Shown piece after piece: positions 4,936-32,542 of a stretch of 34,673 bases of DNA. Under the pieces are notes generated by a model. It was not told the origin of the DNA. It ran no database searches and was given only the letters and a program-made list of their open reading frames with translations. Position 1 is the first letter of the stretch. Every line of letters begins with the position of its first letter. Position numbers and translations under genes: made by a program. Source of the stretch: Streptomyces coryli (GTDB taxonomy: Bacteria; Actinomycetota; Actinomycetes; Streptomycetales; Streptomycetaceae); contig NZ_JAAKZV010000065.1 of assembly GCF_011044975.1 (NCBI RefSeq), positions 1-34,673 of the forward strand, given 5' to 3'.

Positions 4936-5691
4936 TCACGGGTGGCCGGACTTGCTGCACCCGCCGGGCTCGGTCCGCGCCTCCGTCGTCTGCCAGTCGC
5001 CCTCCTCGCCCTTGCGGAGCTTCGTCGTGAGGCGCGGGTACGTGCCGGGCTCGGCCAGGGCGTAGCGGACGTGGCCGTTCGTCTCCTGGCTCGCCTCGAA
5101 GACGTTCAGGTCCGCGCAGTACGCCAGCGACGCGTGCGCGCCGTCGTCCGCGACCGTGACCCGCGGGTCGTAGAAACGGGCGGTGCCGCTCAGTGCGAGG
5201 CGGGACTGGAACTGCTCGGCGTAGCTCTTGCGGCACTTCCAGGCCGCGGAGCCCTTCGCGTAGTACTCGTCGAAGTCCGGCTGCACCGGCGGCGCGTCCT
5301 CGCCCGGGTGGTCGTCGAGGGCCAGCGAATAGGTCTGCCGCTCGGCCTGCGCCGCGGCGTCGAGCACCTGCTGCTCGGCCTTGTCCTCGGCCTCCCAGTC
5401 GGCGAAGCGCATCTGGACGCTGCGGGGCAGCGAGGCCGAGGTGCTGGGGGGCGCGCCGCGCTTGTGCGAGTCGGGCCCCAGCGGCGGATCGGTGGGCTTG
5501 GCGGACGACCGGTTGTGCGGCTTGCCGTAGCCCCGCGGGTCGCCGCCGCAGTCGGCGGCCGGGCCGGACGGGCTCACCTCGGCCACCGGTGGCTTGTCCC
5601 GGCCGGCCACCTCCTCCCCGCAGGCCGCCAGCAGCGGGAGGGCGGCGACGGCGGCGGCAGCGGTGCGTACGGTCCGGGTGCGGCGGATCAC
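4936..5691 (-). CDS. Secreted lipoprotein of unknown function
   Basis: A 251-residue predicted lipoprotein. It has a basic N terminus (MIRRTRTVRT), a hydrophobic core and the lipobox LLAAC with the lipidated Cys at residue 24. The mature part begins with a long Pro/Ser/Gly-rich, probably disordered linker (to about residue 90), followed by a domain of about 160 residues with Cys pairs but no family I recognise. The GTG at 5691 is supported by a GGAG 8 bases upstream. It is 58 bp downstream of a large membrane-protein gene on the same strand, so the two may be co-transcribed. No function is assigned. Confidence 0.85.
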   Translation of the reverse strand: MIRRTRTVRTAAAAVAALPLLAACGEEVAGRDKPPVAEVSPSGPAADCGGDPRGYGKPHNRSSAKPTDPPLGPDSHKRGAPPSTSASLPRSVQMRFADWEAEDKAEQQVLDAAAQAERQTYSLALDDHPGEDAPPVQPDFDEYYAKGSAAWKCRKSYAEQFQSRLALSGTARFYDPRVTVADDGAHASLAYCADLNVFEASQETNGHVRYALAEPGTYPRLTTKLRKGEEGDWQTTEARTEPGGCSKSGHP

Positions 5692-5749
5692 GATCAGTCT
5701 CCTGCTCGGGTGCGAGGTGCCCGACCCAAGCTAGTTGACCAAGCCGCGC

Positions 5750-7129
5750 TCACCAGCCGGTCACCAGAAGATGGTTGACGACCAGCGCCACCAGGCCCTG
5801 CGCCGCCAGCCACCAGCGTGCCGACCGCGGCGGCAGCAGCGCCGCCGCGGGCAGCAGCCACAGCGTGAACGGCAGCCAGATCCGCTCCGTCTCCGCCTTG
5901 CTCATGCCCGACAGATCGGCCGCCGCGATGGCCAGCGCGGCGGCCAGCGTCAGCGCCACCAGCGGGTTGCCGCAGCCCCGTACGGTGGTATCCCGCCAGG
6001 ACCGCAGCCCCCGCCCCGCCGAGACCACCGCGCGGCGCAGCCCCGCCATCGACGCGAGGCCCGCGCTCGCCACCACCGTTGCCAGGTTCGCCCAGAGGAA
6101 ATAGCGGTACGGGCGGTCCGCCGCCACCCCCTCGTAATAGCGGTCGTACAGCTCCCGATAGCCCTCCCACCACCAGAACCCGGCGGCGGTGAAGACCGCC
6201 ACGACCACCCCGGCCCCCAGCGCCGCCCACGGCACCGGACGCAGCGTCCTGGCCGACCACAGCACCGCCGCCACCAGCACCACCAGCAGCGTCAGCCCGT
6301 ACGAGAGATACAGCGCCCACCCCAGCAGCAGCCCGGCGCCGAGACCCGCCCACCGCGACCCGTGCACCGCGCACATGGCCAGCAGCGCCAGCGCCCATGC
6401 CGCCACCGCCGCGAAGTAGCCGTCGGCCGACACCCCGGCCCACACCGCCCAGGGCGTGAGCACCAGGAAGGGCGCCGCCCGCCGGGCCGCCGCCTCGGCG
6501 CCCAGCGTGCGCAGCGTGACCAGCACCGCCGCGGCCGCCGAAGCCGCGGCGGTGAGGACGAGGACAGCGGCCCAGGCGCCGCCGCCGAGGCCGATGCGGT
6601 CGAGGCCGACGAAGGTGGTGATGGCGCCCGGCGGGTGGCCGGCGATGTGGGCGGGCCAGTTGTCGGGGGCGGTCGACTTGGAGATGTAGCGGGTGTACGT
6701 GCGCAGCGCCTCGCCCAGGTCGTCGAAGCGGTGGATGCCCTGGTCGCCGCCCGCGTACAGGTACTCGTTCTTCGCGGTGAGCCGCCCGGCCACCCCGTCC
6801 CGCCAGCCGTCGACGAGGGCGAGGGACCACAGCCAGGCCATCGACGCCAGCCAGCTGCCCAGCAGCAGCCACCGCCACGACAGCCGCGCGGCCAGCGGCG
6901 GCCCGTACGCGATGATGGCCACGGCCAGCGCGACCGCGGCCACGGTGCCGGGGCCGGTGTGCGGGTCCCAATAGGCGTACAGCGGCGGCCAGTCCAGGAA
7001 GAGCGGTGCCCGGCCGTTCGGCTGCCGCATGCCCCAGCCGACCGCGCTCGCCAGCGCGAAGAGTCCGGCGCAGAGCAGTGCGGTCAGCACATCCGCGCGG
7101 TGGCAGGGGGCAGAGTTCGCCGTGGGCAT
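5750..7129 (-). CDS. Polytopic integral membrane protein, possible GT-C-like transferase
   Basis: A 459-residue membrane protein with roughly ten to twelve hydrophobic helices spread over its length (for example about 15-35, 62-78, 88-106, 185-208, 225-245, 255-300, 305-325, 395-415, 425-455). The large extracytoplasmic loop between the third and fourth helices carries AKNEYLYAGGDQGIH and WPAHIAGHPPG. That layout, with a conserved loop containing His and acidic residues, recalls GT-C membrane glycosyltransferases using lipid-linked sugars, but I see no definitive motif. The ATG at 7129 is used. The gene is divergent from the molybdopterin oxidoreductase gene and adjacent to a block containing a GT2 enzyme and a sugar epimerase, which mildly supports a role in surface glycan assembly. 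Confidence 0.8.
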   Translation of the reverse strand: MPTANSAPCHRADVLTALLCAGLFALASAVGWGMRQPNGRAPLFLDWPPLYAYWDPHTGPGTVAAVALAVAIIAYGPPLAARLSWRWLLLGSWLASMAWLWSLALVDGWRDGVAGRLTAKNEYLYAGGDQGIHRFDDLGEALRTYTRYISKSTAPDNWPAHIAGHPPGAITTFVGLDRIGLGGGAWAAVLVLTAAASAAAAVLVTLRTLGAEAAARRAAPFLVLTPWAVWAGVSADGYFAAVAAWALALLAMCAVHGSRWAGLGAGLLLGWALYLSYGLTLLVVLVAAVLWSARTLRPVPWAALGAGVVVAVFTAAGFWWWEGYRELYDRYYEGVAADRPYRYFLWANLATVVASAGLASMAGLRRAVVSAGRGLRSWRDTTVRGCGNPLVALTLAAALAIAAADLSGMSKAETERIWLPFTLWLLPAAALLPPRSARWWLAAQGLVALVVNHLLVTGW

Positions 7130-7243
7130 GGCTCCACCGTAGGCAGAGTTGATCAGTGCACCGGGCCGGCAGCCGCGGACGTCACGGTTTCGTCAGGTGT
7201 CACACGGCCCTGCCGGACCCCGGGCGCTCATACGGTCGAGGAC

Positions 7244-8449
7244 ATGAACGGCAACAAGCGCGGCTTCTGGCGCAGTCCGCTGCGCGGTCCGTGGTTCACC
7301 TCGGTGCTGGGACTGGTGCTGCTGATCGGCCTGCCCGTCCTCTTCGTCACCGGACTGCTGTCGTACGCCGCGTACAACCCGGATCTGGGCCGCGGCAACG
7401 ACCACACCCCGGACCGCGGCATCCTCGGCTTCTTCCTCTTCCCCTGGCCCACCTCGCCGCACTGGCTCTACCGCGTCACTCAGGGCATCCATGTGATCGG
7501 CGGCTTCGTGCTGATCCCGGTGGTGCTGGCCAAGCTCTGGTCGGTGTTCCCGCGGCTGTTCCAGTGGCCGCCGGTGCGGTCGCTGACGCATGCGCTGGAG
7601 CGCGGGTCGCTGCTCCTGCTCGTCGGCGCCACGCTCTTCGAACTCGTCACCGGCGTGCTGAACACCCAGCTCGACTACCTCTTCCCCGGCTCGTTCTACC
7701 GCGTGCACTACTACGGCGCCTGGGTGTTCTTCGCCGCGCTCGTCGTCCATGTCGCGCTGCGCCTCGGCAAGCTGCGCCGCGGCCTGAGGGACGAGGGAGG
7801 TGAGGAATTGCGCGCGCCGGACCCCGCACCATCCACCATCAGCCGGCGCGGTGCGGTGGCGCTGGTCGGCGCCGGGTCGCTGACGCTGTTCGCCGTCACC
7901 GCCGGGCAGGTGACCGGCGGCCCGCTGCGGCGCACCGCCCTGCTCGCGCCGCACGGCGGCGCGGACCCCGGACCGGAGCAGAACGGCTTCCAGGTCAACA
8001 AGACCGCGGCCGGGCGCGGCATCCGGGCCGCCGATACGGGCGAGCACTGGCGGCTGCGGCTGCGCGGTCCTGGCGGCGATCTCGCCCTCAGCCGGGCCGA
8101 GTTGCTGGAGCTCGAGCAGCACACCGTCCGCCTCCCCATCGACTGCGTCGAGGGCTGGTCCACCGGCGACCAGACCTGGACGGGCGTACGGCTGAAGGAC
8201 CTCGCGGCGCTGGCCGGCGCGGAGCCGGACCACATGTACGTCGAGTCGCTGCAGCGCGCCGGCGCCTTCCGCCAGGTGTGGCTGCGCGCCAATCAGGTGC
8301 GCGACGGACGCTCGCTGCTGGCGCTCGGCGTCAACGGCGCCCCGCTGTCGAAGGACCACGGCTTCCCGGCACGGATCGTCGTCCCGAACAACCCGGGCGT
8401 GCACCAGACCAAATGGGTCGAGCGCCTCACCATCGGGAGGCCGGTGTGA
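7244..8449 (+). CDS. Cytochrome b561-like / sulfite oxidase-fold molybdopterin oxidoreductase fusion
   Basis: A 401-residue two-part redox protein. The first about 190 residues are a four-helix membrane module with His residues inside or beside helices (SPHWLYRVTQGIHVIGG, HYYGAWVFFAALVVHVALR), as in di-haem cytochrome b561-like subunits. After a linker with an SRRGAV segment and a fifth hydrophobic stretch comes a sulfite oxidase-fold molybdopterin domain (about 245-400) with the expected cofactor-ligand Cys301 in PIDCVEGWS and the conserved PARIVVPN...YxxxKWVxRL-like C terminus. The Mo-cofactor dimerisation domain of true sulfite oxidases is absent. The protein is therefore likely a membrane-anchored YedY-like reductase or oxidase fused to its own electron donor; substrate unknown. 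The ATG at 7244 begins right at the first basic and hydrophobic segment. It overlaps the next gene by GTGA. Confidence 0.88.
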   Translation: MNGNKRGFWRSPLRGPWFTSVLGLVLLIGLPVLFVTGLLSYAAYNPDLGRGNDHTPDRGILGFFLFPWPTSPHWLYRVTQGIHVIGGFVLIPVVLAKLWSVFPRLFQWPPVRSLTHALERGSLLLLVGATLFELVTGVLNTQLDYLFPGSFYRVHYYGAWVFFAALVVHVALRLGKLRRGLRDEGGEELRAPDPAPSTISRRGAVALVGAGSLTLFAVTAGQVTGGPLRRTALLAPHGGADPGPEQNGFQVNKTAAGRGIRAADTGEHWRLRLRGPGGDLALSRAELLELEQHTVRLPIDCVEGWSTGDQTWTGVRLKDLAALAGAEPDHMYVESLQRAGAFRQVWLRANQVRDGRSLLALGVNGAPLSKDHGFPARIVVPNNPGVHQTKWVERLTIGRPV

Positions 8450-15707: not shown

Positions 15708-17213
<1,506 letters not shown>

Positions 17214-23916: not shown

Positions 23917-23988
23917 ACAGATTGCAATCGAGAACCGTACGAGAGGGGGAGTGTGCCTGGAACCAGCCGATAGAGAAGGGAAATGGGC

Positions 23989-24888
23989 ATGATTCGGGGG
24001 AAACGCAACACGGGCGCCGCGTCCCTGCTCGCACTGGCGGCGGTGGTGCCGGCCGCGATCCTGCTGCCGCAGAGCGGGCAGCAGGAGGCCGAGGGAACGG
24101 CGGACCGGCCGGCCCGCGCCGACGTGGGTGACGGCGTCCGGGCGGCGGCGGGTAAAGCGCCACAACGCGCTGCATTCGCAAACCGCGTGGCCACGTTCAA
24201 CGTCTGCAACCCGTGCGACCAGCTGACGAAGGCCGAGGTCATAGCCGCCGAGATCGCGACATACCGCCCGCAGGTCATCGGCCTCCAGGAGATCTGCGTA
24301 CGGCAGTCCGCCCGGGTGCGCGACATCCTGCGCAGCGGGTACGGCCTGCGCTACCACCTCCAGCACGGCAGCGTGGTCGAGCACCTCGGCCGCTGCGGCG
24401 GCACCCCGTGGGACCCGGGGAACTTCGGCAACGCGGTGCTCTCCGCCGCGCCGATTTCCAGCCCGGTGGTGCAGAAGTATCCTCGCGGCGGCAGCGAGCC
24501 CCGCGGCTACGTCGCCGTCACCACCAGCGTCGCCGGCCGCCAGGTCCGCGTCTTCACCACCCACCTCGCCGAGGCCGCACAGGCCGCGGTCCGCGCCGAA
24601 CAGGTCCGCTTCCTGGCCGACCGGGCCCGCCAACACCCGGGCGCCATCGTGCTCGGCGACCTCAACGCCACCCCGGACGCGCCGGAGCTGACGCCGCTGT
24701 GGAACGGCTTCCGCGACGCCGACCCGGCCTGCGAGCCGCCCGGGAGCGGCGGATGCCAGGCCACCCATCCCGGGGTCCGGAAGAAGTTCGACTACGTCTT
24801 CCTCGACCGCGGGCGCTACACCCCGCGCGGCGTGGGCGTCCACGACACTTACTCCGACCACAGCCTGGTCCACGCCGACCTGAGCTGA
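23989..24888 (+). CDS. Secreted endonuclease/exonuclease/phosphatase (EEP) family protein, copy 2
   Basis: A 299-residue paralogue of the EEP protein at 19887-20729. It has a signal peptide (about residues 1-28) and a longer disordered spacer before the catalytic domain. Motifs are complete: [50 protein letters not shown] and YSDHSLV. All six Cys of the mature first copy are conserved. The ATG at 23989 is preferred over 23983 because AAGGG is 8 bases upstream of it. It is the last gene of a same-strand series (methyltransferase, propeller 1, propeller 2, EEP 2). An external hydrolase of DNA, phospholipid or phosphate esters is likely; the substrate is not determinable. Confidence 0.9.
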   Translation: MIRGKRNTGAASLLALAAVVPAAILLPQSGQQEAEGTADRPARADVGDGVRAAAGKAPQRAAFANRVATFNVCNPCDQLTKAEVIAAEIATYRPQVIGLQEICVRQSARVRDILRSGYGLRYHLQHGSVVEHLGRCGGTPWDPGNFGNAVLSAAPISSPVVQKYPRGGSEPRGYVAVTTSVAGRQVRVFTTHLAEAAQAAVRAEQVRFLADRARQHPGAIVLGDLNATPDAPELTPLWNGFRDADPACEPPGSGGCQATHPGVRKKFDYVFLDRGRYTPRGVGVHDTYSDHSLVHADLS

Positions 24889-24990: not shown

Positions 24991-25023
24991 CGCCGCCGCC
25001 CATTCGCCGAAGGAGCCCAGCCG

Positions 25024-25236
25024 ATGATCGAGGACATTGTCTCCGCCGTGGTCGGCAGACCCGTAGCCGCCGAGGACAATTTCTACGATCTCGGCGGCAC
25101 CTCGCTGCAGGCCATCCGGATCTGCACCCGCATCCGGAAGGAGGCGGGGGTGCGGATATCCCCGGAGGCGTTGTTCAACAGCGAGAACATCGGCGAGTTC
25201 GCGGCCGCCGTCGCGGAACTGCGGCATGCGTCCTGA
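25024..25236 (+). CDS. Free-standing peptidyl carrier protein (T domain)
   Basis: A 70-residue carrier protein. The phosphopantetheine site is DNFYDLGGTSLQAI with Ser27 as attachment point; GGTS instead of the common GG(D/H)S. Helices II and III follow in the usual order (IRICTRIRKEAGVRI, PEALFNSENIGEFAAAVAEL). It should be loaded by the next gene's adenylation enzyme and hand the aminoacyl group to the condensation domain of the large synthetase. The ATG at 25024 is set by AAGGAG 8 bases upstream. An in-frame ATG at 24934 would add 30 charged residues across the leader hairpin and is less likely. It overlaps the adenylation gene by 11 bp. A short first helix is the only oddity. Confidence 0.9.
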   Translation: MIEDIVSAVVGRPVAAEDNFYDLGGTSLQAIRICTRIRKEAGVRISPEALFNSENIGEFAAAVAELRHAS

Positions 25237-26737
25237 CGCGGCGGCGGTGCCCCGCCTGATCCACCACGCGGTGACGCGCCAGGCCCGGCTGCACCCGGAC
25301 AGCTGCGCCGTGATCGACGGCCCGCTGCGGGTGTCGTACGACACCCTTGACCGCGCCGCCGACGCCTACGCCGCCGACCTGGCCGCCGCCGGGGTCAGGG
25401 CCGGTGACCTGGTGCCGGTGGCGCTGCCGCGCGGCGCCCGCCTGATCGTCGCGCTGCTCGCCGTGCTCAAGTGCGGCGCCGGCTATGCCACCCTGGACGT
25501 CGCCCGGCCCGCCGGACAGCTGCGCCGCAGCGTCGAGCAGCTCGGCGCCCGCGTGGGCATCGGCCGGCCGCTGGCCGAGCACGCCGCCGCCGTATGGTGC
25601 CCGCCCGAGGAGCCCTTGGCCGAGACGGCCGCGGGCGCCTCGCAGCCGATCGAAGCCGACGTCGACGAACACGCCGTCGCCGCCGTGTTCTTCACCTCCG
25701 GCACCACCGGCGCCCCCAAGGCGGTGGCTTCCCCGCATCGCGCCGCCATGCGGCTGTTCGTCCCCGCCCCGCTGCCTGGTTACGGGCCGGGCCGCACCAT
25801 GGTCCAGGCGGCCCCGGTCGGCTGGGACGCCTTCACCCTGGAGGTGTGGGGGCCGCTGATCACCGGCGGCACCTGCGCCATCGCCGGCGGAGGCGGCCTG
25901 CTGCCGGATGAGCTGCGCGAGCTGATCGATGAGGCGGGGGCGCGCACCCTGTGGCTCACGTCGGCGCTGTTCAACCTGTTCGTGGATGAGGACCTCGACG
26001 CATTCACCGGCCTGGAGACCGTCTACACCGGCGGCGAGGTGCTCTCGCCCGGCCACGTGCGCAGCTTCCTCGACCGGCACCCCGGCATCGCGCTCTTCAA
26101 CGGCTACGGACCGGTGGAGAGCTGCGGCTTCGCCACCACCCACCGCATCCGCCCGGCCGACTGCGACAACCCGGCCGGCATCCCCATCGGCAGCCCGGTG
26201 CCGGGCACCGGGGTCCATCTGGCCGACGGCGAGATCTACTTGACCGGCGCCGGGCTGGCCACCGGCTATCTGAACAACCCGGCCGAGAACGCGGCCCGGT
26301 TCACTACCCTGGCCACCGCCGCAGGAGCCGAGCGCGCCTACCGTACGGGAGATCGCGCCGAGGTCGACGCCGACGGCGTCTGGCACTTCCGCGGCCGCAC
26401 CGACCGCCAGGTGAAGATAGCCGGCCACCGGGTGGAGCCGGCCGGCATCGAGGCGGTCGCCCGCACCGCCCCCGGCGTACGGCACTGCGCCGCGGTGCCG
26501 GTCCCGGGCCCGGGCGGGGCCCCTGATCGTCTCGCGCTGTTCTACACCGCCGCCGCCACCGCCGCCGAAAGCACGCCGGCCGCGCTGCGCGGGCACCTGC
26601 AGCAGCAGCTGCCCCGCCCCTGGGTGCCGGCCGTGCTGCATCCACTGCCCGCACTGCCGACGACGGCCAACGGCAAGGTCGACCACGCGGCACTGCTCGC
26701 CCTTCTCCGCGCAACCCCGGCCAGGAGCACGTCGTGA
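25226..26737 (+). CDS. Free-standing NRPS adenylation enzyme
   Basis: A 503-residue amino-acid-activating enzyme with all core motifs: A3 FFTSGTTGAPK (155-165), A4 WDAFTLEVWG (200-209), A5 NGYGPVES (292-299), A7 YRTGDRAEV, A8 GRTDRQVKIAGHRVEP and A10 TTANGKVD with Lys484. It lacks its own carrier domain; the free carrier protein just upstream must serve. Aligned by eye to GrsA, the ten pocket positions read D-A-L-W-Y-G-G-G-F-K. Seven match a classic valine code (DAFWIGGTFK), and Asp at position 235 argues for an alpha-amino acid rather than an aryl acid. A valine-like or other aliphatic substrate is therefore inferred. Its stop overlaps the synthetase start by GTGA. Confidence 0.92.
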   Translation: MRPDAAAVPRLIHHAVTRQARLHPDSCAVIDGPLRVSYDTLDRAADAYAADLAAAGVRAGDLVPVALPRGARLIVALLAVLKCGAGYATLDVARPAGQLRRSVEQLGARVGIGRPLAEHAAAVWCPPEEPLAETAAGASQPIEADVDEHAVAAVFFTSGTTGAPKAVASPHRAAMRLFVPAPLPGYGPGRTMVQAAPVGWDAFTLEVWGPLITGGTCAIAGGGGLLPDELRELIDEAGARTLWLTSALFNLFVDEDLDAFTGLETVYTGGEVLSPGHVRSFLDRHPGIALFNGYGPVESCGFATTHRIRPADCDNPAGIPIGSPVPGTGVHLADGEIYLTGAGLATGYLNNPAENAARFTTLATAAGAERAYRTGDRAEVDADGVWHFRGRTDRQVKIAGHRVEPAGIEAVARTAPGVRHCAAVPVPGPGGAPDRLALFYTAAATAAESTPAALRGHLQQQLPRPWVPAVLHPLPALPTTANGKVDHAALLALLRATPARSTS

Positions 26738-29700
26738 ACCACCCCATGTCGTACGAGCAGGAATCGATCTGGCTCAACGACCAGCTGCAGGACGGCGCCT
26801 CGCGCTACGTCGAGTCCTGGAACCACTGGCTGTCAGGACCCGTCGACCACCTGGCCGTCGAGGAGGCGCTGACCGGCATCGTGGCCCGGCACGCCACGCT
26901 GCGCAGCCGCCTGGCGATGGCCGACGGCGAGCCGGTGCAGCAGGTGCTGCCGCCGATGCCGGTCCGCGTGGACAAGCAGTCCGTGACCGCCGACGAGCTC
27001 GACGCCGCCCTCCGCGAGGCCGTCGGCCGGCCGCTGCCGCTCAACGAACCGCCGCTGCTCCAGGCCACCTTGCTGCACACCGGACCCGCCGAGGCCGTCC
27101 TGGTCGTACGGCTGCACCACGCCGTGGTCGACGGCTGGTGCTTCCGCCTGCTCGACCTGGAATTCAGCGAGCGCTACCGGGCCGCGGTGGCAGGCCGCCC
27201 GCCCCAACTGCCTGAGCTGCCGACGACCTTCACCGGCTACGCCGCCGCCCAGCGCCGCCGCCCTGCGGCCGAGCTGGAGGAGCTGCTCGCCCACTGGCGC
27301 GAGGTGCTGGACGGTGCGCCACGCGAGTCCGCCATCCCCGCGCCGCGTCCGCGCCCGGAGGCGCTCAGCCATCGCGGCGGCCAGACCCGCTTTCGCATCA
27401 GCGCACAGCTCGCCGAACAGGCCCGGCGGCTGGCCCGCGACCTGCGCACCACCCCGTTCAGCGTGTTCGCCACCGCACTCAGCGGTCTCGTCGCCCGCTG
27501 GTCCGGGCAGGACGACGTGGTCATCGGCACCCCCATCTCGCGCCGCGATGAGCCCGAGCTCGAGCCCGTGATCGCCTGCCTCACCGACGTCCTGCCGCTA
27601 CGGCATCAACTGCCGCCCGCCGCGCCCTTCGCCGAGCACGTCACCGCCACCCAGCAGAGTCTGTGGGAGGCCATCGCCTGCCGCGACATACCCTTCGGCC
27701 ACCTGGTCAATGAGCTCGATACGGACCGCACGCTGGCCCGCTTCCCGCTGTTCCAGATCGTGTTGACCGTCGACGACGCCGCCGCGCCCGGCCTGGACCT
27801 GCCCGGCATCGAGGCCGAGCGGCTGCATCTGCACAACGGCACCGCCAAGTTCGACCTGTTCCTCCACCTCGTCCCCGACGGCGACGGCGGCTATCTCGGG
27901 CTGCTGGAGTACGCCACCGACCTGTACGAGGCCGCCGACGCGGACCGTATCGCCACCGGCTTCACCACCCTGCTCGCCGATGCCGTCGCCCACCCGCGGT
28001 GGCCGCTCAGCGACCTGGAGACCGTGTCCGAGGCGGACCGGCGGCTGGTACGTGGCTGGGCGCGCGGCCCGGACCACGCCGCTGAACCGCCGCTGGTGCA
28101 CCAGGCCGTCACCCGCCGGGCGCGCAGCACCCCCGACACCATCGCCGTCACCGATGGCACCCGGGCGATGACGTATCAGGAGCTGGACACCGCCTCCGAC
28201 GCCCTTGCCGCCCATCTGGCCGCGACCGGGATACGGCCCGGCGACCGGGTCGCGGTGAGCGTGACCCGCTCGCCCGAGATGCCCGTCGCCGTACTCGCCG
28301 TGGCCAAGGCCGGCGGCTGCGTGGTGCCGATCGACCCCGGCTACCCGGCCGCCCGCGCCGACTTCATGCTCGCCGACAGCGATGCCTCCATGGTGCTCAC
28401 GCACAGCGGCCTGGCCGACCGCTTCGCCGCCTCGGACGCGGTCACGGTGGTGGCTCTCGACGAGCTGCCCCCGCCGCCCGCAGGCGACTTCACCCCGCCG
28501 GAGACGGCCGGCGACGACCTGCTGTACCTGATCTACACCTCGGGCTCCACCGGCACCCCCAAGGGCGTGCCGATGCCGCACCGTTCCCTGGCCTCGCTGA
28601 CGGCCTGGCAGCAGCAACGCTCCGGCGCCGCCCGCACGTTGCAGTTCGCGCCGCTCAGCTTCGACGTCGCCTTCCAGGAGCTGTTCGCCACCCTCGCCGC
28701 CGGCGGCACCCTCGTGCTGGCAGGGGAGGAGGAGCGCAGGGACCCCGAGCGGCTGCTGGACCTGCTGACCAGCCAGCGTGTGGAGCGGCTGTTCCTGCCG
28801 TTCGTCGCCCTGCAGCAGCTCGCCGAGTACGCGACCGCCGCCCGAAAGACCTGCCCCGTGCCGGAGGTGATCACCGCGGGCGAGCAGCTGCACATCACCC
28901 CTGCCATCCGCGCCTTCTTCGCCGGTACTGGCGCGGTGCTCGAGAACCAGTACGGCCCGTCGGAGACCCACGTGGTCACCGCCCACCGGCTGACCGGCGA
29001 CCCGGCCACCTGGCCCGAACGGCCGCCGATCGGCCGCGTCGTCGACGGCGCCCGCGTGTACGTACTCGACCGCCATCTGAACCCGATGCCGCCCGGCCTC
29101 CCCGGCGAGATCTGCATCGCCGGCGGGGTCGTCGCCGAGGGCTACCACCGCCGGCCCGAGAAGAGCGCGCACAAGTTCCGCGGCATCACCGGCCCGTACC
29201 GAAACCGGCTCTACCGCAGCGGCGACCTGGGCCGCTTCCTGCCCGACGGCACGCTCGAATTCCTCGGCCGGGCCGACAGCCAGGTGAAGATCCGCGGTTT
29301 CCGGGTGGAGCCCGCCGAGACCGAGGCGGCACTGCGCCGCCTGCCCGGCATCGCCGACGCCGCCGTGGTCGCCGCCCCGGCACCCACCGGTGGCCTGCGG
29401 CTGGCCGGTCATTACGTAGGCGACCGGCTGGATCCGGCCGCGCTCCGCGACGCCCTCGCCGAACGGCTCCCGGAGCACCTGGTGCCGCAGGTGCTGGTGG
29501 CGCACGACCGCTTCCCGCTCACGCCCAGCGGCAAGCTGGATCGCAAGGCCCTCGCCGGGCATTCCGCGGGCAACGAGTCCTCGCCGTCCTCCATCGCGTG
29601 GACGCCGCAACAGCAGCCGGTGGTCGACGCTTGGCAGCTCGTCCTGGGCGCCGCGCCGGCCGCCCCGGAGGCCGACTTCTTCGCCGCCGGCGGCGATTCC

Positions 29701-30993
29701 CTGACCGCGGTACGGCTGGTCCTGGCGCTGAAGGACGCCACCGGCATCCGGCTGCCGATGAACGCCGTGTTCTCCGCCCCGACCGTCACCGGCCTGAGCG
29801 CCCGACTGGCCGTCACCACCTACGACGACGCTCCCACCCTCGCCACCGACGCCCAACTGCCAGCACACATCCAGCCCGCCGCGCAGGTCGCACCGATGCC
29901 CGCCGATCCGGGCCTTCTGCTGCTCACCGGCGCCACCGGCTTCCTCGGCGCCCACCTGCTGCAGCAGTTGCTCACCGGCACCCGGGCGACCGTGGCGTGC
30001 CTGGTGCGCGCCGCCACTGAACTGGAGGGCCACGACCGGATCGTCGCCGCCCTGCGCCGCTACGACCTGTGGCAGCCCTCGTGGGCCGGCAGGATCCGTG
30101 CCCTACCCGCGGACCTCGCCGCGCCCCGCCTCGGCCTCACCGATGAGCGTTTCCACCGCCTCGCGCAGGACGTCGACGCCGTCTACCACTGCGGCGCGGC
30201 GGTCAACCTCGCCCACGCGTACCCCCAGCTGAGGGCCGCCAACGTCACCGGCACCGCCGAGATCCTGCACCTCGCGGCCGCCCACCGCACCGTTCCGATG
30301 CACCACGTCTCCACGGTCGGCGTGCTGACGCCCACCCCGGGGATCACCCGAATCGGCCCCGACACCCCGCTGCCGCCCCCGGACGGACTCCAGCACGGCT
30401 ACGCCCAGTCCAAGTGGGCCGCCGAAGCCTTGATCAACCAGGCCCGCGAACGCGGCCTGCCGGTCACCGTCTACCGGCCCACCCGCATCAGCGCCAACAG
30501 CACCACCGGCATCTGCCAGGAAGGCGACTTCTTCTGGCTGCTGCTGAAGAGCTGCGTCGAAGCCGGCATCGCCCCCACCGATGCCGGCCTCGCCTTCGAC
30601 CTGGTCCCCGTCGACTACACGGCCGCCGCCATCGTCCGGCTGTCCACGCAGCAGGCCGCGGCCAACCGCACCTTCCACCTGGCCGGCGAGCGGCATCTGC
30701 ACCTGCGGACCGCCGTCGACTGGCTACGGGCTCGCGGCCACCGCATCGAAGCCGGCCCCGCGGAGGCCTGGGCCGCCCGCATCGAGGAGCGGCAGCTGCC
30801 CACCGGTCTTGCGCTGCTCGCCACCTTCCGCACCGGAACCGACGCCGAAGGCACCCACCTCTACGACGCCGCCACCACCCGCGCCCTGCTGCCCGACCTG
30901 GACTGCCCGCCCTTCGACGCCGCCCAATTCCACGCCTGCGCGGATCACTTCACCGCCACCGGTTTCCTCCCCGCGGCGGACCCCGCCCGGTGA
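26734..30993 (+). CDS. NRPS with C-A-T-R domains (reductive release, predicted proline module)
   Basis: A 1419-residue synthetase. Order: condensation domain (about 1-440) with HHAVVDG at 128-134; adenylation domain (about 455-950) with A3 YTSGSTGTPKG at 601-611, A4 FDVAFQE at 643-649, YGPSETH, and A10 LTPSGKLDRK; carrier domain with FFAAGGDSL and Ser989; and a C-terminal thioester reductase (about 1060-1410) with LTGATGFLG (1064-1072), HHVSTVGV and catalytic Tyr1223/Lys1227 in YAQSK. The pocket read by eye is D-V-Q-F-I-A-Q-V-V-K, one change (H to Q) from the classic proline code. Release should be NAD(P)H-dependent to an aldehyde (two- or four-electron reduction is not decided). No thioesterase, MbtH, PPTase, exporter or regulator is in the window. 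GTG start overlaps the previous stop. Confidence 0.95.
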   Translation: MNHPMSYEQESIWLNDQLQDGASRYVESWNHWLSGPVDHLAVEEALTGIVARHATLRSRLAMADGEPVQQVLPPMPVRVDKQSVTADELDAALREAVGRPLPLNEPPLLQATLLHTGPAEAVLVVRLHHAVVDGWCFRLLDLEFSERYRAAVAGRPPQLPELPTTFTGYAAAQRRRPAAELEELLAHWREVLDGAPRESAIPAPRPRPEALSHRGGQTRFRISAQLAEQARRLARDLRTTPFSVFATALSGLVARWSGQDDVVIGTPISRRDEPELEPVIACLTDVLPLRHQLPPAAPFAEHVTATQQSLWEAIACRDIPFGHLVNELDTDRTLARFPLFQIVLTVDDAAAPGLDLPGIEAERLHLHNGTAKFDLFLHLVPDGDGGYLGLLEYATDLYEAADADRIATGFTTLLADAVAHPRWPLSDLETVSEADRRLVRGWARGPDHAAEPPLVHQAVTRRARSTPDTIAVTDGTRAMTYQELDTASDALAAHLAATGIRPGDRVAVSVTRSPEMPVAVLAVAKAGGCVVPIDPGYPAARADFMLADSDASMVLTHSGLADRFAASDAVTVVALDELPPPPAGDFTPPETAGDDLLYLIYTSGSTGTPKGVPMPHRSLASLTAWQQQRSGAARTLQFAPLSFDVAFQELFATLAAGGTLVLAGEEERRDPERLLDLLTSQRVERLFLPFVALQQLAEYATAARKTCPVPEVITAGEQLHITPAIRAFFAGTGAVLENQYGPSETHVVTAHRLTGDPATWPERPPIGRVVDGARVYVLDRHLNPMPPGLPGEICIAGGVVAEGYHRRPEKSAHKFRGITGPYRNRLYRSGDLGRFLPDGTLEFLGRADSQVKIRGFRVEPAETEAALRRLPGIADAAVVAAPAPTGGLRLAGHYVGDRLDPAALRDALAERLPEHLVPQVLVAHDRFPLTPSGKLDRKALAGHSAGNESSPSSIAWTPQQQPVVDAWQLVLGAAPAAPEADFFAAGGDSLTAVRLVLALKDATGIRLPMNAVFSAPTVTGLSARLAVTTYDDAPTLATDAQLPAHIQPAAQVAPMPADPGLLLLTGATGFLGAHLLQQLLTGTRATVACLVRAATELEGHDRIVAALRRYDLWQPSWAGRIRALPADLAAPRLGLTDERFHRLAQDVDAVYHCGAAVNLAHAYPQLRAANVTGTAEILHLAAAHRTVPMHHVSTVGVLTPTPGITRIGPDTPLPPPDGLQHGYAQSKWAAEALINQARERGLPVTVYRPTRISANSTTGICQEGDFFWLLLKSCVEAGIAPTDAGLAFDLVPVDYTAAAIVRLSTQQAAANRTFHLAGERHLHLRTAVDWLRARGHRIEAGPAEAWAARIEERQLPTGLALLATFRTGTDAEGTHLYDAATTRALLPDLDCPPFDAAQFHACADHFTATGFLPAADPAR

Positions 30994-31008
30994 ATCCGGG
31001 GATTCACC
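30989..31008. terminator. Perfect 9-bp-stem palindrome spanning NRPS and cyanase stop codons
   Basis: GGTGAATCC (30989-30997), GG, then GGATTCACC (31000-31008). The left arm contains the NRPS TGA and the right arm the cyanase stop (TCA on this strand). A hairpin here could end both convergent transcripts, although there is no U-tract on either strand. Confidence 0.55.
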
Positions 31009-31456
31009 AGGTGCGATACGGCAGGAACTTGCCGTTCAAGGTGACCTTGACGCGGTCGCCGCGCGGGTCGTCCACGCGGTCGATGTCCATGGAGAAGTCG
31101 ATGGCGGACATGATGCCCGACCCGAACTTCTCCTCGATGACAGCCTTGAGGGTCGTCCCGTAGACCTGGACGATCTCGTGGAAGCGGTAGATCAGCGGAT
31201 CGGTGGGCACGGCGGCCGGCAGGCTGCCGCGGGCGGCGTCGCGGCTGAGGGCGGCGACCGTCGCCTCGTCCAGGGCCAGCGCCTTGCCGGCCGCGGCGGC
31301 CTGCTCGCTGCTCATGGTGTTCTGCCCGAGGAGTGCGGACGCGACCCACACCTCGTGCGCGCCCACCACCTGCGCGAGTTCCTCGAAGCTGAGCCCGGCC
31401 CGCTCCTTGGCGGCCAGGATGCGGCGGGTCGCCTCGGCTCGATCTATGTAGTCCAT
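31004..31456 (-). CDS. cynS: Cyanate hydratase (cyanase)
   Basis: A 150-residue cyanase (E. coli CynS is 156). It decomposes cyanate with bicarbonate to ammonia and two CO2 in the cytosol, as a decamer. The N-terminal DNA-binding-like fold (SFEELAQVVGAHEVWVASALLGQ) is followed by the highly conserved catalytic domain: PTDPLIYRFHEIVQVYGTTLK with catalytic Arg91 and Glu94, and EKFGSGIMSAIDF with Ser117. The start ATG at 31456 gives the normal length. The gene is divergent from a formate/nitrite-family channel gene (229 bp away), which may import or export its substrate or product, and convergent with the NRPS operon. Confidence 0.97.
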   Translation of the reverse strand: MDYIDRAEATRRILAAKERAGLSFEELAQVVGAHEVWVASALLGQNTMSSEQAAAAGKALALDEATVAALSRDAARGSLPAAVPTDPLIYRFHEIVQVYGTTLKAVIEEKFGSGIMSAIDFSMDIDRVDDPRGDRVKVTLNGKFLPYRTW

Positions 31457-31473
31457 GCCGGTACGTGTATCGC

Positions 31474-31506
31474 CCGGATGTTGCACCGGGACACGGCCGG
31501 TGTTGC
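31474..31506. promoter_or_regulatory. Direct repeat in the cynS/FNT divergent promoter
   Basis: CCGGATGTTGC (31474-31484) and CCGGTGTTGC (31497-31506) are imperfect direct repeats 23 bp apart, close to the cynS start in the 228-bp intergenic region shared with the channel gene. They could be regulator half-sites. I see no convincing -35/-10 boxes in the rest of the region. Confidence 0.3.
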
Positions 31507-31684
31507 GCGCGGATGACCACGCGGCTCCTCCCAGCCGGCCGACGGCGGCGGTGAGGCTTTCGAGTCGGCGCGCTAACAAGGTCGTCACTGCCCGGACACC
31601 TTCTGCCCGCACCCTCGTGCCTTGGCCCGGCACCGTCGTGCTGCCACCCGTACCCCCGCGCAGCCCCTGCTCGAGGAGCTCTTC

Positions 31685-32542
31685 GTGTCCTATCTCAGCC
31701 CGCCCGAGTTCGTCCGCAAGATGATCGACGCGGGCGAGTCCAAAGCCGCCATGTCGACGCGCGACACGGTCATCCGCGCCTACATGGCCGGCGCGATTCT
31801 CGCCCTGGCGGCCGCGTTCGCCGTCACCATCACCGTGCAGACCGGCAACGCGCTCGTCGGCGCGCTGCTGTTCCCCGTCGGCTTCTGCCTGCTCTACCTG
31901 CTCGGATTCGACCTGCTCACCGGGGTGTTCACCCTGGTGCCGCTGGCCTGGCTCGACCGCAGGCCCGGCGTCACCGTGCGGAGCGTGCTGCGCAATTGGG
32001 GCTGGGTCTTCGTCGGCAACTTCGCCGGCGCGCTGACGGTCGCCGCGATGATCTCCGCCATCGTCACCTTCGGCTTCTCCGTCGACCCCGACGAGGTCGG
32101 CCGCCGGCTGGGCGAGATCGGGGAGAGCCGGACGGTGGGCTACGCCGAGCACGGCGCGGCGGGCATGTTCACCCTTTTCCTGCGCGGCGTGCTGTGCAAT
32201 TGGATGGTGTCGACCGGCGTCGTCGCCGCGATGATGTCCTCGTCCGTGTCCGGCAAGGTCATCGCGATGTGGATGCCCATCATCGTCTTCTTCTACATGG
32301 GCTTCGAGCACTCGGTCGTCAACATGTTCCTCTTCCCCTCCGGCCTGATGCTCGGCGGCGGCTTCTCCATCGGCGACTATCTGCTGTGGAACGAGATCCC
32401 CACCGTCGTCGGCAACCTCGTCGGCGGCCTCGCCTTCGTCGGGCTCACCCTGTACGCCACCCACGCCCGCACCGCGCCGGAACGCGGCGTCGAGGCGGAC
32501 GAACCGACCGCGAAGCGGGCCGTACGGCTCGGTGGCCCGTAA
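31685..32542 (+). CDS. Formate/nitrite transporter (FNT) family channel
   Basis: A 285-residue integral membrane protein with six hydrophobic helices and the FNT family segments: SPPEFVRKMIDAGESKAAMS at the N terminus, GFDLLTGVFTLVPL after the second helix, the WGWVFVGNFAGAL half-helix repeat, and LCNWMVSTGV and GFEHSVVNMFLFP with the pore His and conserved Asn-Met. FNT pentamers conduct small monovalent anions such as formate, nitrite, hydrosulfide or lactate. Being divergent from cyanase suggests cyanate or bicarbonate as cargo, which is inference. The GTG at 31685 is placed by GAGGAG 6 bases upstream; a longer frame from 31622 is not supported. The helicase gene follows about 130 bp downstream. 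Confidence 0.92.
   Translation: MSYLSPPEFVRKMIDAGESKAAMSTRDTVIRAYMAGAILALAAAFAVTITVQTGNALVGALLFPVGFCLLYLLGFDLLTGVFTLVPLAWLDRRPGVTVRSVLRNWGWVFVGNFAGALTVAAMISAIVTFGFSVDPDEVGRRLGEIGESRTVGYAEHGAAGMFTLFLRGVLCNWMVSTGVVAAMMSSSVSGKVIAMWMPIIVFFYMGFEHSVVNMFLFPSGLMLGGGFSIGDYLLWNEIPTVVGNLVGGLAFVGLTLYATHARTAPERGVEADEPTAKRAVRLGGP

Follow-up and report, generated by a model that had tools for sequence, protein, structure and literature searches.

The window considered here is a 34,673-nucleotide stretch of the Streptomyces coryli genome (positions 1 to 34,673 of contig NZ_JAAKZV010000065.1), which carries on its forward strand, at 25024..30993, three overlapping genes encoding a free-standing carrier protein (T), a free-standing adenylation enzyme (A1), and a synthetase with condensation, adenylation, carrier, and reductase domains (C-A-T-R). 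Judged from its sequence, this cassette is a complete minimal two-module nonribosomal peptide synthetase (NRPS), and it is probably a self-contained synthetase of an X-Pro (most plausibly Val-Pro) aldehyde, the product of which would cyclise to a bicyclic imine or pyrazinone. A sequence-only reading of the locus had described the split T / A / C-A-T-R arrangement and proposed an aminoacyl-prolinal or its cyclic imine as the product. The observation is confirmed, the outer coordinates being exact, and the interpretation as a whole is partly supported. What is added here is that T/A/C-A-T-R is a recurring three-gene cassette, beyond one locus.

The T gene (25024..25236) encodes 70 aa with a Pfam PP-binding match (E 1.4e-14), and overlaps by 11 bases (25226-25236) the gene for A1 (25226..26737; 503 aa), which contains AMP-binding and AMP-binding_C domains. 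The C-A-T-R gene (26734..30993; 1419 aa) begins at a GTG that runs into the A1 stop codon, in a 4-base overlap (GTGA, 26734-26737), so that the stop/start overlaps that had been read at both junctions are borne out. AAGGAG lies 5′ of the T ATG (25010-25015), and AGGAG 5′ of the C-A-T-R GTG (26723-26727). A consensus scan found no sigma-70-type promoter or intrinsic terminator, although such a scan says little. In C-A-T-R, the Pfam order is Condensation, AMP-binding, PP-binding, and NAD_binding_4: (i) the C domain (aa 4-437; 26743..28044; E 8.9e-72) contains HHAVVDG, and its HHA..DG is conserved across 21 aligned sequences; (ii) the second adenylation domain, A2 (aa 460-934; 28111..29535), has a proline-like pocket; (iii) the carrier domain T2 spans aa 963-1025 (29620..29808; E 2.1e-13); and (iv) the terminal thioester reductase domain R (aa 1063-1412; 29920..30969; E 1.4e-65) contains the glycine loop TGATGFLG and GYAQSK (YxxxK). 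The NCBIfam thioester-reductase model TIGR01746 matches R at 307.2 bits, above its cut-off of 213.35, in line with the reductive release that had been proposed. The carrier serines lie within GGTS and GGDS in the translations, and the GKxD lysine is intact in both A1 and A2. With two A-T units, one C domain, a terminal R domain, and the catalytic motifs, the locus has the make-up of a reductase-terminated dimodular NRPS.

According to the proposed assembly, A1 would activate X (valine most likely) and load it onto the free T, and the C domain would join X to a proline loaded by A2 onto T2. The R domain would then reduce the thioester with NAD(P)H, which we infer would release an X-Pro aldehyde bearing a free amine. 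Ring closure between this amine and the aldehyde should give a six-membered cyclic imine of the hexahydropyrrolo[1,2-a]pyrazin-4-one type, and oxidation of the imine may then yield a bicyclic pyrazinone; from an alpha-amino acid starter, a six-membered ring rather than a diazepine is expected. Such a course from dipeptide aldehyde through cyclic imine to pyrazinone is reported for the tilivalline reductase domain when placed in an engineered synthetase of two modules (PMC7586950). For X = Val, the computed [M+H]+ values are 199.1441 (aldehyde), 181.1335 (imine), 179.1179 (pyrazinone), and 201.1598 (alcohol).

Relatives were sought by scanning a genome-contig collection with the C-A-T-R protein, which gave 76 loci, 28 of which were laid out. 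The core family consists of 20 full-length actinobacterial loci (L001-L017, L020, L021, and L058) from Streptomyces, Stackebrandtia, Paractinoplanes, Micromonospora, and Actinosynnema; all 20 have T, A, and C-A-T-R in three neighbouring open frames, with identities to the window of 45-61% (A1), 46-64% (C), 51-59% (A2), and 47-57% (R). Fetching 16 regions added the cassette in L116, L118, and L122, and it was present in 13 of 17 further regions, including L132 and L137, which are duplicates of L021 and L006. The final table has 35 rows, representing 34 distinct loci with the window (33 relatives), as L116 duplicates L010; left out of it are G164, G305, G348, G352, and G358, which have a family C domain, and second copies in G053 and G257. 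The matches to T, A1, and C follow the same order on one strand in 35/35 rows, and so does R in 34, the exception being L133, whose protein is truncated by the start of the contig and so lacks R. Such recurrence goes beyond coincidence.

Within Streptomyces, the genus of the S. niveus locus, the family C domain is found in at least 26 of 392 sampled genomes, a lower bound because the limit applied missed at least G025, the carrier of the L004 locus. An A1 match lies directly beside this domain in 23 of the 26, as judged by comparing two lists by eye. In a sample of the phylum, the C-A-T-R query at a strict limit found 1/396 genomes, the seed genome. The best match in a search of plasmids is a divergent C-A-T-T-R on a Streptomyces cadmiisoli plasmid (L124:11971-16758), with tandem carriers before R; no free A or T to match it was found in the 28.7 kb read. 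Separately, three loci (L139, L141, and L142) have T and A1-like genes beside a C-domain or C-A protein, without a full C-A-T-R.

The cassette is conserved as a unit and sited at unrelated chromosomal places. In trees of 21 tips (the window and the 20 core loci), A1 and the combined C+A2+R have 9 of 18 splits in common; when the labels were shuffled 500 times, the mean was 0.23 and the highest count 3. In both trees a Streptomyces anulatus copy branches with those of Micromonospora okii and Paractinoplanes (support 0.998 and 1.000), a grouping suggestive of inter-family transfer. Neighbouring genes were clustered across 35 loci, excluding L115 and L140, for which few genes had been called, as well as L139, L141, L142, L132, and L137. 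The only gene families present in more than 8 of these loci are C-A-T-R (35), A (33), and T (27 called). The next commonest neighbour, found in 8 rows that represent 7 distinct loci, is a protein of 739 aa, a monomeric isocitrate dehydrogenase where tested (L006 and L131). Beyond the three cassette genes, none is common to different lineages: one lineage has the cassette next to isocitrate dehydrogenase, another between uvrA and uvrC.

The pocket codes of both adenylation units were located via conserved motifs in the alignment, with an assumed numbering of the pocket positions. The A2 code, DVQFIAQVVK, is one site away from DVQFVAQVVK, which is among the codes tabulated as Pro together with DVQFVSQVMK, DVQYVAHVVK, and DVQYIAHVVK (PMC9113097). 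The exact DVQFVAQVVK is present at A2 in 11 of the 35 rows (10 of 34 distinct loci), and the pattern DVQ...QVVK in 35/35. The best single-domain PDB matches to A2 are 8p5o (gramicidin S synthase 2; 265.6 bits) and 9bfd_B (tyrocidine synthase 2; 263.6 bits), both of which we take to be proline domains. With its DVQ-type code and its closeness to Pro domains, A2 is thus strongly predicted, and with good confidence, to take proline, as had been proposed for the second residue.

For A1, the code DALWYGGGFK differs at two sites from DALWIGGTFK, which is listed among the commonest codes for Leu/Ile/Val domains (PMC12283262). In 35/35 rows the A1 code starts with Asp and is aliphatic-like. A1 scores 144.4 bits against the A domain of NpsA and 287.4 bits against its best PDB match, 4gr5. 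Since A1 is not NpsA-like and has an aliphatic-like code, anthranilate is unlikely to be its substrate. We have moderate confidence that A1 takes a small branched aliphatic amino acid, with valine most likely, which agrees with the earlier proposal of an aliphatic alpha-amino acid starter in place of anthranilate. A1-like enzymes as a whole are found in 57 of the 392 genomes, some of them in cluster types of other kinds. One set of loci of similar layout (L107-L112; e.g., L109:683-10482) has free A enzymes 52-54% identical to A1, with the code DALW[YFH]GGVFK; in L109, the one scanned, there are also a carrier-thioesterase (T-TE) didomain, a radical SAM enzyme, a Cys/Met-type PLP enzyme, a methyltransferase, a TrmO-like protein, and an MFS transporter.

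Several findings count against a Val-Pro aldehyde made by the three genes alone. The closest solved relative of A1 by sequence is 4gr5, which we take to be SlgN1, with a polar amino acid as substrate; G330 and F331 are common to both proteins, while 4gr5 has Q where A1 has W278. The window's own A1 code (Y299, G330) occurs in no other of the 35 rows. In L126 and L127, a single open frame contains both the T and the A matches, which may be fused, so the split of T from A is not universal. The best full-length NCBIfam match of C-A-T-R is the model for the myxochelin protein MxcG. Finally, the bare dipeptide may not be the final product everywhere, because some relatives have tailoring-type genes or NRPS genes as neighbours. 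Pfam scans, which covered part of the relatives' neighbours, showed that in both L134:4096-14238 and L135:6258-16564 the genes in line with the cassette include a Trp_halogenase-family member, a flavin reductase, and a Na/H exchanger. In L021:6904-17131 and L136:4415-14438, MFS, HisRS-like, and FemAB-like genes flank the cassette, a setting that gives a hint of tRNA-dependent amino acid addition. In L118:4185-8663, genes for an MFS protein, an S9 prolyl oligopeptidase (5524-7443), and a PGA_cap protein lie upstream of T/A/C-A-T-R. Further NRPS genes adjoin the cassette in L012, L058, L126, L127, and L138; the one in L126 ends in its own thioesterase and so looks like a separate line.

The alternative that survives best keeps the assembly line and changes its starter, which might be isoleucine, 2-aminobutyrate, alanine, or a polar amino acid instead of valine, or the free A/T pair might serve a tethered modification before condensation. 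The two-site departure of the A1 pocket from DALWIGGTFK leaves room for this, as do the halogenase-family and flavin reductase genes of L134 and L135; however, no tailoring enzyme adjoins the cassette in the window, and the clustering of the 35 loci, with part of the relatives' neighbours scanned by Pfam, found no tailoring-type family recurring across lineages. We regard a different starter or a modified one as somewhat unlikely, though a real contender.

A second alternative concerns release. The R domain might reduce twice, giving an X-prolinol dipeptide alcohol and no imine. The MxcG reductase goes beyond the aldehyde, and the structure of the MxaA reductase (4u7w), presumably a four-electron enzyme, is among the PDB matches of R. 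Yet both match reductase domains generally, and the score of C-A-T-R on the MxcG model (NF038078) is 717.6 bits, far under the cut-off of 2300, so that it is not an MxcG equivalog by this model. Moreover, the bimodular C-A-T-R systems with known products, tilivalline and aureusimine, are reported to give an aldehyde and an imine (PMC5875774; PMC7586950). Double reduction is therefore a rather unlikely outcome, and release as the aldehyde is preferred.

The aldehyde might also be the active form. X-prolinals are prolyl peptidase inhibitors, and an open X-Pro aldehyde could block proline-specific serine peptidases. In L118, the S9 prolyl oligopeptidase, MFS, and PGA_cap genes are placed upstream of the cassette as a self-protection copy might be. 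Protease inhibition is described for small peptide aldehydes from Streptomyces (PMC10548850). On the other hand, a BLAST search with the L118 S9 protein gave a match in 1/35 gene sets, that of L118 itself, and the peptidase was rejected as a general self-resistance gene; the free amine, too, would favour cyclisation over inhibition. An open-chain inhibitor as the product thus seems improbable, although not strikingly so. As to function, the likeliest roles of the predicted product would be a proline-directed peptidase inhibitor or a small imine or pyrazinone signal, the former being attractive because of the product's shape and the S9 neighbour in L118.

That the cassette is a pyrrolobenzodiazepine (PBD) synthetase, intact or decayed, with an A1 that activates anthranilate and a product that binds DNA, is very improbable: despite a free A, a free T, and a C-A-T-R as in tilivalline, and a uvrA-family gene just upstream of the cassette in four loci (L002, L003, L014, and L130; by Pfam for the last three), A1 is far from NpsA with an Asp-first code throughout, and no anthranilate, 4-alkylproline, or uvrA gene was recognised by Pfam among the 33 window genes, a window that might be too short to contain a larger cluster. 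The cassettes of L003 and L014 sit between uvrA and uvrC. In the L003 genome the cassette-side uvrA is the only full-length 100% match (three others are partial and 41-45% identical), and so looks like the housekeeping copy. UvrA as a self-resistance protein was consequently rejected for L003 and is unlikely for L014, where uvrA and uvrC are both present; the PBD explanation was likewise rejected for the window.

Around the cassette, an endonuclease/exonuclease/phosphatase-family gene (23983-24888) lies 135 bases upstream on the same strand, and downstream a convergent cyanase gene (31004-31456) ends 10 bases beyond the C-A-T-R stop. A Pfam scan of all 33 predicted window genes found no apparent partner genes for the cassette. 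The cyanase gene is divergent from a formate/nitrite-family transporter gene (31004-32542 for the pair), possibly for cyanate handling. Elsewhere in the window, a gene at 15762-17213 encodes a GH10 glycosyl hydrolase with a ricin-B lectin domain.

A broader proposal can be made tentatively: a horizontally moving, recurrent cassette might by itself make an alpha-aminoacyl-prolinal (a bicyclic imine or pyrrolopyrazinone), an undescribed actinobacterial small-molecule class acting as a proline-peptidase inhibitor or signal, and modified in certain lineages by a halogenase or the HisRS-like and FemAB-like pair. We hold this to be less likely than not, though a serious possibility. Searches of open-licence papers yielded none recognised as a description of the gene set, or of an X-prolinal or pyrrolopyrazinone from such a cluster, in keeping with the sequence-only reading, which knew of no matching Streptomyces product. 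Should the product prove to be such an imine or pyrazinone, a complete peptide-synthetase cluster of very small size has escaped notice in Streptomyces. The prediction is sharp, as it names two substrates and four masses.

Among known systems, the closest in architecture is the tilivalline/tilimycin line of NpsA, ThdA, and NpsB, which is described as a free A, a free T, and a C-A-T-R with proline second, reductive release, and an imine (PMC5875774). The window likewise has a free A, a free T, a separate C-A-T-R, an R domain, and a predicted proline as the second residue. It differs in that its starter A domain is of the amino-acid type rather than the anthranilate type, in its gene order (T, A, C-A-T-R), and in having no recognised aroX-type precursor operon or UvrX. 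By sequence, the cassette is thus predicted to work like the tilivalline line yet is not a pyrrolobenzodiazepine cluster; of the earlier analogy to tilivalline and the PBDs, the architecture stands, whereas the PBD precursor and UvrA genes were not recognised in the window. UvrA-like genes are reported as the resistance genes of PBD clusters (PMC5958127).

The actinobacterial PBD synthetases TomA/TomB, Lim1/Lim2, ORF21/22, and SibE/SibD are described as having two activating units, a proline-type second substrate, and a dipeptide that cyclises internally (PMC5958127). Two activating units and a predicted proline-type second substrate are also present in the window. The domain make-up differs from that of the PBD synthetases, in that T and A are separate genes in the window. 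In Streptomyces lividans, livipeptin comes from a very small system predicted to make a dipeptide aldehyde, which differs from the window's in that it is described as having no C domain and using a tRNA-dependent L/F transferase and arginine (PMC10548850). Aureusimine AusA and related pyrazinone synthetases are reported to join two amino acids and to release them through an R domain, with the aldehyde passing through a cyclic imine to a pyrazinone (PMC7586950). The window cassette would also use two amino acids with R-domain release. The AusA-type synthetases are single A-T-C-A-T-R proteins, and the C-A-T-R of the window scores 488.8 bits against the NF047350 cut-off of 2500, so that it does not qualify as an equivalog. 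Unlike the AusA products, the window's would contain proline, which would give a fused bicycle.

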